From Desulfoluna sp. (GTDB lineage: Bacteria; Desulfobacterota; Desulfobacteria; Desulfobacterales; Desulfolunaceae), in the NCBI RefSeq assembly GCF_030145185.1, contig NZ_JAQYWB010000028.1:1-64000 (forward strand): a stretch of DNA of 64,000 nt, in the 5' to 3' direction. Both the position numbers and the translations under genes were made by a program. Below the pieces are notes generated by a model. That model did no database searches. It saw only the letters and a list, made by a program, of their open reading frames with translations, and was not told the DNA's origin. Below are positions 43,279 through 48,579 of this stretch, in pieces (position 1 is the first letter of the stretch; each line of letters starts with the position of its first letter).

Positions 43279-46200
43279 TTACATCTGCATCAGATAGACC
43301 CTTAGATTTACCCCGCTTTTTTTCAGACCTAATTTATCTCGAATACTGTCACGGTAAGCCTCAATGGTCCGGGGAGAAAGATTTAGAACATCGGCAATCT
43401 CTTTGGTGGTTTTTCCACTGCGCACCAACTGCGCGGTCTGTATTTCAGCCGGAGTGAGTCGATAAAAACCGGCATTGAGCTTTCGAGCAAAAGGTGAGAG
43501 GAGATCTTCAATATTCTTTTCGAGCATCCCCACCAGATTTCCCTGGACCTGAGTCAACCGCGTCCCTTTGAGACGCTCGATATAGGGAAAAATCAAGTCA
43601 TCGACATTCCGGATCATATTTTCCTGAATCTCAGCCATATTCTCATCACTTTTGCTCAGCATCTGCTTCAGGGTAATGTTGGCCTCTCTGAGCTTTTCGC
43701 CGGACTCATTGAGTTCCCTCTCCTTTTCCAGAAGGGCCAATTCTTTATTTTTACGATCCGCGGTCTCATTTTTCAAAACCAGATTCACTCTATGAAGATT
43801 TTCGGCCTGATTTTCCTGGCTCTCATAGAGTCGGGTACTCTCCATGGCGTTGGCTATTTGAGAAGAAAGGGTGTTCAACACACGCAGCCGTTGTCCTTCG
43901 AAGAGATGATCCACGGTCCGGTTTTCCAGGTAAAGGGCTCCGCATAATCGAGACTGAATCCGAGAGGGAATACAGATGGCACTCCCGCCTTGAAAATCAT
44001 CAAAATAGGGATCATAAGCCACCGGAACCGTTCCATGATTGTACTGAAGAAGGCGTCCTGTGCGCGCCACATACTGAATCATCGCGCTCGGCAGGTCGGC
44101 ACTGTCGGTCAAGGGAACAGACCCGCAGAGTTCAACCTCCTCGGCGCCCTCTCCTTTCCATGCCACCAGTCGCACCAGCTCACCGTCCATCCGTAACACC
44201 GCCCCCGCCTCGGCTCCGCCATACTCCAGGGCCGTCAGCATCAGTTTTTCAACAAAATGATTTAATGTCCGTTCCGTGGAAAGCGCTTCAAAGGCCTTGG
44301 AGACCCCCTCTAAATTAAGACAGCCCACCGTCCGAGGACACGCATCGATGGGCACATGTCCATGAGAGGCATCCATGATGGCCGGAAGACGCCTTAACAC
44401 CTCTTCATAATCCTTTTCCAGCTTGAGCGCTTTGGCCTCAGCGCCCCAAAATCGCCAGAGATTTACCGCATCGGTGAGGCACACCCTGGCCAGACGTTTC
44501 CAGCCCATTTTTAAATAACAGAACCCGGCCCTTTCCAGCGCATAGGCTTCATGGAAGGTAAAATTATGTTTCTTTGCGACCTCACTTGCATGCTCAAAGA
44601 ACCCAGCCGCTTTCGACAGTTTTTTCTGAGCCAGCGCCCGCTCCCCTTGAACCAACACATGGAGATGGGAAAAGTTCTCAGGGGCGTCCACAGCCGCTTT
44701 CTTTAACTCGGCCTCAATCCGTTTGGCCTTTTTTCTCCATGCCTTCTGCTTTAATGTGATGCCACCGCCCCCGTATCGGGCAAAGATAGCCGCAACAAAC
44801 GCTGAAAAAACCGGGATCGTGTAGGTGCTGGTGCCTTCATCCATCATGGCGGTGTAACACTCCACATGGTGAAGCGCCAGAGCATCGTCTCCGAAGAGGA
44901 AGGCCATAAATCCTTTGGTAATATGGTAATTCAGAGCGGCCGTATGATCATTGGGCATGTCGCCCCCCCGCGGGCGCTCTTCATCGGTAAAAAAAGGTCC
45001 AGAGAACCTCATGGGGTAATCTCCGGCCTCGGTCAAATTGACCACGGTTTGTTGAAGATTACGAACAGTCCTCAAAAAAGGCAGTTTGAGGCGTTCCATC
45101 TCTTCAACGTAAACCACCATATCGCGAGCCAGCTGATGCAACTCTCCGGACGAAAAGAAGCGAGAGTAAAGCCAGGCGGAGACGGCACTTCCGGCATACT
45201 CATTGTCCCCTTCTGCCAGAGACTGCTCATAGGCCTGCAGGTACATGGGGAGCAACTTGTGAATAGGCTCCTTCCAATGCCGGATAAGACAGATGATCAC
45301 CACCAGGGTCTTGCCCCTCCCCCCCCATTGCGACTTCTTATCCATCAGGTCCAGGGCTGCCTGGACTTGGACCATCCCCTTGTCGACATTCTTGTCCACC
45401 CGAATGCAAATGACCCCGTAGGTGACCAGAAGAAAAGGGGTGTATTTGGAACGTCCGTGCTTCAAGCTGTAACGCAGGGCGCTGAATATAATCAAAGAGG
45501 AGAGGACAGTTCCAGCGAGATAGGATGCCATGATCACCGTAAAAAGGAGCTCCATAATAGAAAGATGCCCCGCATCCGTCATGGAATGAAGCCGATCAAG
45601 CCCCCGTCGCCCCAACCGAACCAGATGACTCCGAACGCGCAGGAAAGCCATCATCTGATGCCCTCGGGTCACCGTCTCCGGTAAACGAAAACCAAATTTG
45701 GAGAGGGCCTTCCGTCCCAGGGACAAAGCGCCGGTAAGATCATTCACGGCAATGGCTCCGCGGATCCTCATACGCCAGACCCCCACACAATCAAAGTCGC
45801 TTTTCGCCTTTTGCTCAACCGTCGCCACGTAGCCCTCCATGACGGCGTACTCCCCAAGGGCATAGGCGGCTTCCGCAGCCGCCGATGTGATGTCAAGACA
45901 AACCCCGTAGTCGTCAAGCCATGCCCCTTCCCCAAAAAGACGAAGCCCGGACCGAAAAAAATCAAGCGCCTGACCGAACGAAGAGGTCTCCATGGACCGT
46001 TTACCGGCGGAAAGGTTCAGAAGAACCAGTTCTTTACGATAACTCTCGCGCACAGGAACCGTTCCAGAGGCATTAAACTGATACACGACATCAAAAAGAT
46101 AGCGGCCTGGCCTGCGCTGAAGCCCCTCATACATGTGCATCCCCGCATTGAAATGAGCCAGTGCCCTCTGGCTTTGATTCATGCGATCGTAGGCAGACTT

Positions 46201-48222
46201 CTGAACCAGGTCATGGACAAAACGGTAGTCACCGTCTTTCACATGAACAAAAATTTTCTCTTCACAAAGGCATTCAAGCCCCTGCCTCACCTCGGCCTCC
46301 GATGTTTGTACCACCAGGCACAAGAGTGATGGCACCACCCTGTGCCCCAGCAGGGAGGCCGCCTCGACGAGCTGTTTCAAGGGCGTATCCAGACGATCCA
46401 CCCGTTCTGAAATCCACAGTGCGGCCGTATTGCTGACAGGGAGGGCCTCCAGCTTCTGCTGATTCCAGTACCACCCTTCCCCGTCTGGCCCATGGGCCCT
46501 GACCAGCCCCCCCCCATAAAGGACTTTTTCCAAAAGAGCATTCAGGTGGTAAGGGTTGCCCCCTGTTTTGGCATAAAAAAGGTCTGCAAGAGGAGCGATC
46601 CGTTTTCGGTCCTCCCGAAGATGCAAAACCAGAAAGGTCTCCACGGCGAGGCTATCCAAGCCCTGAAGCAGAAGGACATCGGCTTTGCCCTCGTTTTTCA
46701 ACCGGGCGGTATCAAAAAAGGCCTCCATCCGCAGGCTCTGTCCGGCTTGGGTTCGAAGAGCGCCCAGAAGCCCCACCTTCTCACCGACCATCTCCGTTAA
46801 AAGATTCAAAAACAGATGAGAATCTTCATCCGCCCACTGGATATCATCGATAAAGAGGATCAGGGGCCGGTCCATTCGTTTAAACACACGAAATAAATTA
46901 ATCATGGACAGTCGGATCACGTTGGCCTTGGCCGACGCCTCCAGAGTCCTGAACCGTTCATCCGGCTCTTTGCCGGTAATCAAAGAAAAGTCCGGCACGA
47001 TGGCGGAGAGGGTAGAGGCCCCGTCCCCCATCAGAAGATTCACCACATTACGCCACTTCCAAAGCTTTGCTTCGGGTTCTCCGAGGATGGATCGTGCCAC
47101 CTGCTGCAACACACCGATAAAGACGGAGCCCGGCCGGTCCACATCCTGATCAAATTTTCCAGAGACAAGCATGACGTCGGGATAATGCCGACGGGCATAA
47201 CAGCAAACCCATTCCGCAAGGGTCGTTTTCCCGGCACCCGGCTCTCCGGATAAAAGCATCACCCCCGGACGTTCAAAGGCAAGGCTGCCTGACTCAGAGA
47301 GCCCCTTGAGCCACGCCACCAGCACCCGTTTTTCTTCTTCCCGCCCGCAAAGCGGTTCTTCTGCAAAGGATTCTTGAGACGTGTCGATCGCATGCCCTGA
47401 TGATTCACCCGTCCGTATTCCGTTCTCAAGAGCCACGGAAAGAGCCCCTGCGGAATCAAAACGACCCGCCGGATTTCGGTCTATCAAGCGCATGATCACC
47501 TCATCCAGCCAGGGGGGAATATCCAGACAAATTTTGGAAGGAGCCAAAGGGGCCACAGCCACCTGGGAGTGTATAATTCCACCCAAGGTTTCCACCTCAA
47601 AGGGAAGGCGGCCGGTAAAGGCCTCGTACATCATAACCCCCAGGGAGTAGAGATCGCTCCGGGGGTCCGAATGAAGGCCTCCAGTCGTTTTCAACTCAGG
47701 CGCGCTGTAGGCCAGGGCCATAAGACGATCGTCGATATTTCGCAGAGAGTTCACATCGCCAAGGCAGACATTGTTGTGAAACCCAGCCAGCTGAACCTGA
47801 CCTGTTCTGATGTTCACAACGATATAATAGGGGGTAATGTTTCCGTGGACAACACCACAGCGATGACAATAAGAAAGGGTATGAGCCAGGGTCTGAAACC
47901 AGGACAAAAGAGCCTCATGACCGGGGGTGGAGATCTCATAAATCCGTTTAAGCTGCTCCCCTCCAATGTCTTCCAGGGAGAGGGTCAGGCCCAGGGAGGT
48001 CTGTTTCAGCTCAATGGCTTTCATCACCCCTGGATGCTCCAGCCCCTGAAGCGTAACGCACTCTTGCTTGTACATCTCCATTTCAGTGTCACTGGGACAC
48101 TCACGTTTCAACACCTTTAAGATAACGTTGCGATGATGCTCCGTACTCCAGGCCTTGTAATATCCGGACAACCCATCTTGAAAAACCAATTTCGGCTGAA
48201 CAAACTCATCAATAACAGCCAT
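43279..48222 (-). CDS. Pseudokinase-STAND ATPase-GAF-LuxR regulator
   Basis: The 1647-residue cytoplasmic protein has, in order, a Ser/Thr-kinase-like domain (about 12-270), an AAA/STAND ATPase (about 290-560), a long helical repeat region (about 600-1290), a GAF domain (about 1310-1490), a coiled coil, and a LuxR helix-turn-helix (last 60 residues, LTPAEIQTAQLVRSGKTTKEIADVLNL). The kinase keeps Lys36 (VILKVL) but has HGN at 126-128 where HRD is expected, and AGF-H at 146-149 instead of DFG. The ATPase has intact Walker A (GEPGAGKTT, 326-334) and Walker B (LILFIDDIQWAD). It likely senses a signal and activates transcription. ATG 48222 follows GGGAG. Confidence 0.9.
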   Translation of the reverse strand: MAVIDEFVQPKLVFQDGLSGYYKAWSTEHHRNVILKVLKRECPSDTEMEMYKQECVTLQGLEHPGVMKAIELKQTSLGLTLSLEDIGGEQLKRIYEISTPGHEALLSWFQTLAHTLSYCHRCGVVHGNITPYYIVVNIRTGQVQLAGFHNNVCLGDVNSLRNIDDRLMALAYSAPELKTTGGLHSDPRSDLYSLGVMMYEAFTGRLPFEVETLGGIIHSQVAVAPLAPSKICLDIPPWLDEVIMRLIDRNPAGRFDSAGALSVALENGIRTGESSGHAIDTSQESFAEEPLCGREEEKRVLVAWLKGLSESGSLAFERPGVMLLSGEPGAGKTTLAEWVCCYARRHYPDVMLVSGKFDQDVDRPGSVFIGVLQQVARSILGEPEAKLWKWRNVVNLLMGDGASTLSAIVPDFSLITGKEPDERFRTLEASAKANVIRLSMINLFRVFKRMDRPLILFIDDIQWADEDSHLFLNLLTEMVGEKVGLLGALRTQAGQSLRMEAFFDTARLKNEGKADVLLLQGLDSLAVETFLVLHLREDRKRIAPLADLFYAKTGGNPYHLNALLEKVLYGGGLVRAHGPDGEGWYWNQQKLEALPVSNTAALWISERVDRLDTPLKQLVEAASLLGHRVVPSLLCLVVQTSEAEVRQGLECLCEEKIFVHVKDGDYRFVHDLVQKSAYDRMNQSQRALAHFNAGMHMYEGLQRRPGRYLFDVVYQFNASGTVPVRESYRKELVLLNLSAGKRSMETSSFGQALDFFRSGLRLFGEGAWLDDYGVCLDITSAAAEAAYALGEYAVMEGYVATVEQKAKSDFDCVGVWRMRIRGAIAVNDLTGALSLGRKALSKFGFRLPETVTRGHQMMAFLRVRSHLVRLGRRGLDRLHSMTDAGHLSIMELLFTVIMASYLAGTVLSSLIIFSALRYSLKHGRSKYTPFLLVTYGVICIRVDKNVDKGMVQVQAALDLMDKKSQWGGRGKTLVVIICLIRHWKEPIHKLLPMYLQAYEQSLAEGDNEYAGSAVSAWLYSRFFSSGELHQLARDMVVYVEEMERLKLPFLRTVRNLQQTVVNLTEAGDYPMRFSGPFFTDEERPRGGDMPNDHTAALNYHITKGFMAFLFGDDALALHHVECYTAMMDEGTSTYTIPVFSAFVAAIFARYGGGGITLKQKAWRKKAKRIEAELKKAAVDAPENFSHLHVLVQGERALAQKKLSKAAGFFEHASEVAKKHNFTFHEAYALERAGFCYLKMGWKRLARVCLTDAVNLWRFWGAEAKALKLEKDYEEVLRRLPAIMDASHGHVPIDACPRTVGCLNLEGVSKAFEALSTERTLNHFVEKLMLTALEYGGAEAGAVLRMDGELVRLVAWKGEGAEEVELCGSVPLTDSADLPSAMIQYVARTGRLLQYNHGTVPVAYDPYFDDFQGGSAICIPSRIQSRLCGALYLENRTVDHLFEGQRLRVLNTLSSQIANAMESTRLYESQENQAENLHRVNLVLKNETADRKNKELALLEKERELNESGEKLREANITLKQMLSKSDENMAEIQENMIRNVDDLIFPYIERLKGTRLTQVQGNLVGMLEKNIEDLLSPFARKLNAGFYRLTPAEIQTAQLVRSGKTTKEIADVLNLSPRTIEAYRDSIRDKLGLKKSGVNLRVYLMQM

Positions 48223-48579
48223 ATGCTCCCTTTCCATCTCCGCGGTAGCGTGCATAATCTCGTCAGCAGAGGTACCATAAACGGGCGTTTTCCTGCGGCA
48301 CGGTACTCAAAGCATAAGCCCACCATAGAGAAACACGCGAAACGAACCCAACCTCAGGCAAACCGTTCGCCAAGCCTCTTATCCGTGACAATTGCATGCA
48401 TTATCCTTGAAGGGGCATTCATCGTTTTTACCCACCACATCGCAGGAAGTCAATATGGATCAGGCAATATGGCAGGGGGCAGGAACGTTTGGAATCATTA
48501 GGCGGGAAAGAAGGGGCAGATTAAGACCGAAAGCGACGGTAAAGGATCTGCCCCTGTATGAAAAACCCTCAGGCAAAAA
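48223..48579. other. Intergenic, nothing recognised
   Basis: About 355 bp separate the large regulator from the upstream dihydrouridine synthase on the same strand. It must contain the regulator's promoter. I see no gene, clear operator or repeat from the dispersed families. Confidence 0.4.

Follow-up and report, generated by a model that had tools for sequence, protein, structure and literature searches.

In the CP1 family of kinases, known mainly from cyanobacteria and proteobacteria, ~40% of members are described as pseudokinases with varied motif losses, and each pseudokinase member is reported to be physically joined to a predicted ATPase (COG3899); FhlA/GAF or PAS domains are frequent, and a membrane span is lacking (O'Boyle et al. 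2025, PMC12599244). Here we analyzed a 64-kb window of Desulfoluna sp. DNA (the window being the whole stretch that was studied), which encodes on its minus strand a large regulator that, judged from its sequence, fits this family as an unusual member. Its domains follow in the order pseudokinase, STAND ATPase, MalT-III-like TPR superhelix, GAF, coil, and LuxR. Like CP1 proteins, it combines a Ser/Thr-kinase fold with a GAF domain; an AAA_16 match and a STAND-like fold lie where a COG3899 ATPase would be expected. In contrast to them, it has a LuxR output, and the main text of the review mentions neither LuxR nor STAND (PMC12599244). Since a CP1 family with many pseudokinases is already described, the pseudokinase is not exceptional by itself. 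The LuxR end and a triple catalytic loss with kept Lys and Glu are the rarer features, and the novelty, given that the class is known, is the LuxR-ended, triple-loss version found in one genus of this order; no pseudokinase–STAND–LuxR protein was found described in the open-access literature.

Other described systems share parts of this architecture. Cyanobacterial cbSTKIII proteins such as HstK are described with GAF domains, histidine-kinase ends (HisKA), and KD loops (PMC2176072); they have the Ser/Thr kinase and GAF in common with the window protein, which differs in its HGN loop and LuxR end. A 2005 survey uses the name dual kinases for Ser/Thr kinases that also carry GAF and histidine-kinase domains, and it lists kinase-like sequences without the catalytic Asp (PMC1262709). 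Among the fungal CHK1-type hybrid kinases (Chk1, Mak2, and Mak3), Chk1 is reported to share the domain order Ser/Thr kinase–AAA_16–GAF (PMC9069115), but the fungal proteins end in a histidine kinase and receiver; Pfam TPR_CHK1 matches two relatives, L046 and P0002, and not the window protein. In Candida albicans CHK1, deletion of kinase and ATPase is reported to impair function and removal of the GAF as well to restore it partly (PMC9069115), which suggests that kinase, ATPase, and GAF are coupled. Mycobacterial PknK, a STAND-family Ser/Thr kinase called transcriptional regulatory (PMC9045387), differs in being an active kinase with known substrates. The TOMM-system kinase/cyclase fusion TIGR03903 is the second-best NCBIfam match (98.8 bits, cut-off 705.75) and covers the STAND region 292-710 among two stretches; it ends in a cyclase where the window protein ends in LuxR. 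MalT/LAL regulators share NTPase, TPR, and C-terminal LuxR in architecture only, the GAF and kinase fold being extra here; MalT is not known to have either of the two. No sequence-level relation to MalT was found in a PDB sequence search of the STAND–TPR region at the cut-offs used.

A further parallel is MLKL, described as keeping the VAIK Lys, reading GFE and, in human, HGK (Asn third in mouse), and binding ATP without metal, with a pseudoactive site that controls assembly (PMC6013482, PMC4718504). The likeness lies in the kept β3 Lys, the HG[K/N] and GF-x letters, and a pseudokinase governing oligomerization of a fused effector. However, organism, effector, and ancestry differ, and the similar letters most likely arose by convergence.

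Residues lost and kept in the kinase domain

The open reading frame (ORF) runs without interruption over 43279-48255 (1658 aa), and residues are numbered throughout from its first ATG, at 48255. Alignment to PknA and to family members placed H137-G138-N139 at the HRD position, G158-F159-H160 at the DFG position (Asp to Gly, Gly to His, Phe kept), and Y144 at the catalytic-loop Asn. Retained are K47 (the β3 Lys, in VILK), E65 (the αC Glu), H137, F159, SAPE at 184-187, and the αF Asp D201, while the Gly-rich loop is missing, as it is in the aligned relatives. A preliminary description of this DNA had recognized a Ser/Thr-kinase layout from the VILK Lys and SAPE, now assigned to K47 and 184-187, within a Pfam Pkinase match (33-266; 74.6 bits, cut-off 31.7). 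It had also read HGN and AGFH at the two catalytic sites; the alignment bears out both Asp losses, but the register of the second was off, because the A of AGFH precedes the triplet.

Structure models of residues 1-300 and 296-1320 were each built separately with AlphaFold2. The first predicts a complete kinase fold, with a mean predicted local distance difference test (pLDDT) score of 87.5 and a predicted template modeling (pTM) score of 0.87, and it matches PknB (3ori) with Z 30.6 over 257 aligned residues at a root-mean-square deviation (rmsd) of 2.2 Å. In the alignments, both losses fall in the HRD and DFG columns. Taking loss of at least one of VAIK Lys, HRD Asp, and DFG Asp as the mark of a pseudokinase, the N-terminal domain would be classed as one, and phosphotransfer is probably absent from this kinase fold.

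A search of 116 genomes, the window's own included, yielded orthologues in three other genomes of the genus, 67-72% identical to the window protein. They read HGN/HGH/HGH and GFN/GFN/GFN at the two sites, so that the catalytic losses are not by chance; K47 and E65 are kept and the loop Asn is lost in all. Using the three full-length genes, we obtained rough NG86 ratios of nonsynonymous to synonymous substitution (dN/dS) of 0.14-0.20 for the N-terminal lobe (N-lobe), 0.12-0.24 for the C-terminal lobe (C-lobe), 0.13-0.20 for the STAND nucleotide-binding domain, and 0.03-0.05 for LuxR, values good to an order of magnitude only since synonymous sites are near saturation. In pairs with a fourth, split orthologous gene, C-lobe dN/dS rises up to 0.34, where the alignment crosses a frame break. 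The kinase domain is thus under purifying selection, and the earlier view that selection acts on the whole gene agrees with low ratios across the kinase lobes, the STAND domain, and LuxR. The most conserved part is the LuxR end (residues 1591-1658), where the window protein is 88-90% identical to its three orthologues; the kinase C-lobe belongs to the faster-evolving stretches, with 57% identity in one pair.

Catalysis and scaffold across the family

We then compared the domain with a family set of 148 kinase domains, 147 of them scorable, drawn from a named sample and from relatives within the order. Of 575 relatives found in named bacterial genomes, the best-scoring 80 were kept; ~50 of these were cyanobacterial by title, and the rest came from Desulfobacteraceae, Thiotrichaceae, Myxococcales, Burkholderia, Cupriavidus, Bacillota, and others; ~70 places were taken from matches within the order. 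The number of candidates scored per genome was 4 in the 116-genome search, 7 in 291 genomes of the order, and 5 in 395 genomes of the phylum, with the best rows listed. Left out of the 148 were the window's own copy (L016), a truncated copy of L046 (L009), a locus with no full ORF (L162), and C-terminal pieces (two of L076 and one each of L025, L082, and L019), while a coverage filter removed L063, L075, L083, L084, and L085. Because four of these last five (not L085) lack the HRD Asp by eye, the tally is biased towards intact domains. L051 and L105, identical in sequence and both intact, were counted twice, and three loci gave two ORFs each.

Both Asp residues are present in 106 of the 147 scorable domains; the HRD Asp alone is missing from 20, the DFG Asp alone from 10, and both from 11. 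As the preliminary description had expected of relatives, most keep both residues and histidine-kinase tails are the commonest in a motif search. At least one catalytic Asp is lost in 41/147 domains (28/66 in the order sample, window included, and 13/81 in the named sample), counts that are not unbiased rates since sampling went by similarity to the window protein and took best matches only. Ten of the 11 domains without both Asp also lack the loop Asn. Loss of HRD Asp, loop Asn, and DFG Asp together with a kept β3 Lys and αC Glu was seen only in the window protein and its three orthologues among the 148 domains; in six further domains all three residues are lost, but Lys and Glu are not both retained. 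A tree of the STAND region built with FastTree (143 labeled rows) requires at least 18 changes between intact and degenerate states, 18 at the HRD site, and 8 at the DFG site; the position of the window clade in this tree is unsure because its branch is very long (2.42).

In contrast, the scaffold hardly changes. Among the 41 degenerate domains, the APE Glu is present in 41/41, the αF Asp in 40/41, and Arg265 in 40/41, and the ATPase motifs are kept to the same degree (Walker A Lys 40/41, Walker B first Asp 41/41), while the β3 Lys is less constant (26/41). Our main result is this contrast across the family: catalysis can be lost, whereas the C-lobe scaffold and the ATPase are retained.

Other degenerate members stand apart from the window clade. 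In a clade comprising L140, L152, L158, and L164 (Kribbella, a Bradyrhizobium metagenome-assembled genome [MAG], Cupriavidus, and Paraburkholderia), HKD is kept, DFG has become GFG, and the β3 Lys is lost, which marks another path to degeneracy in this family. L104 (5884-10983, plus strand), which comes from Clostridium and ends in GGDEF, reads GFE at the DFG triplet and HKT in the loop and is independently near the MLKL pattern.

STAND ATPase, probable output exchange, and gene setting

STAND proteins are marked by a Walker A motif, a Walker B motif with an acidic pair, and a GxP motif after the nucleotide-binding domain. The window protein carries GEPGAGKT, LILFIDD, and GGNP in these places, and the Walker motifs reported earlier as intact are present (GEPGAGKT at 337-344, DD at 470-471). 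In the model of residues 296-1320 (mean pLDDT 81, pTM 0.61), a helical-repeat sensor follows the NTPase module, as in STAND NTPases. At its NTPase end, the model resembles Cdc6/Orc1-like proteins and Apaf-1 (Z 13.8, 404 residues, 6.5 Å), and the repeat region matches MalT domain III (1hz4) with Z 18.0 over 351 aligned residues at 5.2 Å rmsd. Helical repeats match many things, so the latter match is no proof of kinship; by its architecture, MalT is nonetheless the best functional guide. A single hydropathy peak (1.9 at ~900-927) lies inside the modeled helical-repeat region.

Tails after the GAF domain vary across the family: motif searches, which are approximate, found histidine-kinase types, SpoIIE/PP2C, GGDEF, cyclase, sigma-54, STAS, and LuxR. 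Among 143 tails, an intact kinase accompanied 4/10 GGDEF, 65/85 scorable histidine-kinase-type, 11/15 SpoIIE/PP2C, 6/7 cyclase, 4/5 sigma-54, 12/18 unassigned or other, and 0/2 LuxR tails, counts that are approximate since L017 and L163 escaped the LuxR motif and several PP2C-like tails were likewise overlooked; these were assigned by eye. A tie between output type and kinase state, as the GGDEF trend might suggest, is not claimed, because the rows are related and few. LuxR-ended lineages number only two, the window clade and a Bacillota MAG member (L163, P0002), both without the HRD Asp. The three same-genus orthologues combine a LuxR end with changes of the HGN/GFH kind; L163 shares the LuxR end and reads HRR at the HRD position.

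The LuxR end also has relatives of its own. Similarity to family members with other ends stops mostly at ~1480-1520, and similarity of the coil–LuxR part to shorter LuxR-ended proteins starts at ~1466-1500 in many rows, which places the probable exchange of outputs close to where the coil begins. The C-terminal 353 residues match at 1e-20 or better in 216/291 genomes of the order; most matches listed cover coil and LuxR only, and only the four same-genus genes among them carry this tail on a frame >1000 aa. In the 395 phylum genomes, four others match at 1e-40, on frames of 943-1079 aa, and one that was scanned has seven PAS stretches and GerE. The LuxR output thus looks to have been swapped in from a coil–LuxR module common in the order, and outputs are exchangeable across the family.

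Pfam matches to Pkinase, AAA_16, GAF, and GerE follow in this order (Table 1), with GAF_2 also matched and no HisKA or HATPase_c match at E 0.001. Translation probably starts at Met12 (nucleotide 48222), giving a regulator of 1647 aa, since orthologue conservation begins there and a GGGAG stretch resembling a ribosome site lies just upstream; this favors the gene start proposed previously. The promoter-like pattern upstream had one match in the window versus none in 100 shuffles, the pattern itself being drawn from this four-locus alignment, and the element at 48426-48453 is absent from the list of a consensus promoter scan.

Table 1. Features of the regulator locus, with positions in the window
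Feature	Positions	Strand	Basis
Pseudokinase–STAND–TPR–GAF–coil–LuxR regulator gene	43279..48222	-	ORF, Pfam, orthologue alignment
Putative pseudokinase domain, residues 12-285	47401..48222	-	Pfam Pkinase 33-266, AlphaFold2, PknB match
Kept β3 (VAIK) lysine K47	48115..48117	-	Alignment to PknA and family members
HGN 137-139 at HRD position, catalytic Asp to Asn	47839..47847	-	Alignments
GFH 158-160 at DFG position, Mg-binding Asp to Gly	47776..47784	-	Alignments
STAND NTPase nucleotide-binding domain, residues 296-500	46756..47370	-	Pfam AAA_16 302-489; fold matches incl. Cdc6/Orc1, Apaf-1
Walker A GEPGAGKT 337-344	47224..47247	-	Sequence motif
Walker B LILFIDD 465-471 (DD = 470-471)	46843..46863	-	Sequence motif
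Helical-repeat sensor region, residues 721-1310; ~893-1276 match MalT domain III	44326..46095	-	AlphaFold2 model; 1hz4
GAF domain, residues 1329-1472	43840..44271	-	Pfam
Coil/linker, residues 1476-1590, common to other LuxR-ended proteins of the order; probable fusion boundary near its start	43486..43830	-	Similarity searches
LuxR/GerE DNA-binding domain, residues 1600-1645	43321..43458	-	Pfam
Promoter-like element TTGACT-N17-TAAAAA (TTGACT-N17-TARAA), conserved in 4 orthologous loci, ~200 nucleotides before start codon	48426..48453	-	Alignment

The four regulator-bearing genomes are syntenic over a region with dus and rhomboid at one end and a NifX-like gene at the other (gene names by eye), so the neighbors do not single out a target, and a function deduced from neighboring genes was rejected as reflecting shared synteny. 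In a same-genus genome (G004, L171 13061-14697), the NifX-like gene adjoins dus and the regulator gene is absent from the site, where only chance-level similarity was detected (best E 0.066). No dus match was found in genome G003.

Proposed mechanism and rival explanations

MalT and other STAND proteins respond to ligand binding and ATP exchange by assembly. We propose that the window protein is a one-component regulator whose kinase fold does not phosphorylate but helps to control an ATP-driven assembly like that of MalT, a reading to which we give a probability of about 0.6. The architecture suggests a kinase fold turned binding or switch module, with output passing through STAND assembly. 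The starting point would be a cytosolic CP1-type input platform of kinase fold, STAND ATPase, TPR superhelix, and GAF, on which the coil–LuxR DNA-binding end took the place of the ancestor's histidine kinase or other output, while the kinase fold, no longer transferring phosphate, would have been retained as a structural and regulatory module beside the STAND engine. At rest, the protein would be ADP-bound and closed. Inputs would arrive via the TPR superhelix, the GAF, and the pseudokinase, candidates being a ligand, a metal-free nucleotide, a partner, or phosphorylation by another kinase; they would lead to ADP–ATP exchange and assembly, clustering the LuxR domains on DNA in the manner of MalT. 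Gating by the pseudokinase, ATP-driven assembly, DNA binding, and the cytosolic location are all parts that we infer. Across the family, motif searches show at least six kinds of output, the active site is lost repeatedly, and the ATPase motifs and kinase scaffold are near-constant, which suggests that the STAND ATPase is the engine and that the kinase fold regulates it.

Several observations weigh against this proposal. The GxP motif reads GGIP, not GGNP, in two orthologues. TPR superhelices find matches in many proteins, the scores of Rap proteins here equal that of MalT (Z 19.6 and 18.2), and no PDB sequence matched the STAND–TPR part at the cut-offs used. Motif-poor kinase folds can still bind or turn over nucleotide in other ways, as described for CASK (PMC4718504) and for SelO and SidJ (PMC12599244). 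Orthologue L019 (genome G002, contig C48) is broken into two overlapping frames at a stretch of G residues within its kinase-domain coding sequence, which reflects either an assembly error or recent decay. Finally, the paralogue L046 of the same genome (contig C10, 5000-9946, minus strand) shares the architecture but lacks the kinase N-lobe and reads KGLTPSS in its catalytic loop, with STAND, GAF, and a HisKA_3/HATPase end present; upstream of it, only short chance-level similarities were found. Its relatives L065 and L075, from two same-genus genomes, likewise show no N-lobe in the alignment.

The last two cases would be expected if the kinase domain were simply decaying, with catalysis gone and selection seeing the rest of the protein: one orthologue is broken there, the paralogue has lost a whole lobe yet keeps its STAND, GAF, and histidine-kinase parts, and the C-lobe evolves fast relative to LuxR (57% identity in one pair versus 88%). 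However, dN/dS is low in both lobes and similar to that of the STAND domain, the fold is predicted at high confidence, and scaffold residues are almost invariant in the 41 degenerate domains while the catalytic ones are not, which makes decay improbable. Still less probable is a kept but unconventional catalysis, either metal-independent phosphotransfer as in CASK or a different transfer reaction, for example AMPylation. K47 and E65 are indeed retained in the window protein and its orthologues, and 10 other domains of the family lose the DFG Asp but keep the HRD Asp, nearer to CASK; here, HRD Asp, loop Asn, and DFG Asp are all lost and, as in relatives, there is no Gly-rich loop.

An unlikely, but less remote, alternative is that the fold serves as a docking or acceptor site, which an active Ser/Thr kinase binds or phosphorylates on the activation segment, thereby relieving the STAND engine (cf. 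RIPK3/MLKL). Human MLKL (HGK/GFE) is reported to be switched by RIPK3 phosphorylation of its activation loop, and mouse MLKL to have Asn at the N139 equivalent (PMC6013482, PMC4718504); Ser/Thr kinases with intact HRD/HKD and DFG motifs are also encoded in the same genome (contigs C84 and C118). Yet the window's contig, C80, has no other Pkinase match, the neighboring genes reflect shared synteny rather than a signaling operon, and the activation segment is not constant in sequence across the four orthologues, one of which also differs in its length, so that no invariant acceptor site stands out. The kinases at L015 (428-3340 and 4259-7171, in tandem) and L014 (240-2759), with intact HRD/HKD and DFG, have ends that by eye resemble PEGA repeats and a sulfatase-modifying-factor-like domain; they are possible active partners. 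An identity as an anti-phage defense kinase (names PD-T4-6, MkoA, MADS6, and PglW) was rejected, since the PADLOC matches listed (25 of 32) span residues 12-305 only and NCBIfam scores are far below curated cut-offs.

Returning to the kinase fold as a gate on STAND assembly, we tentatively extend the idea to the whole class, in which the fold might be mainly an allosteric gate rather than an enzyme, so that catalysis could be lost repeatedly at no cost. The window protein would then be the clearest case, an MLKL-like switch on a DNA-binding STAND factor with no phosphotransfer in its path. The LuxR-ended version is convenient for testing, its output being readable as transcription from a promoter. 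Together, these results suggest that the kinase fold would act as a switch rather than an enzyme, and a known family gains an unusual member with a DNA-binding output.

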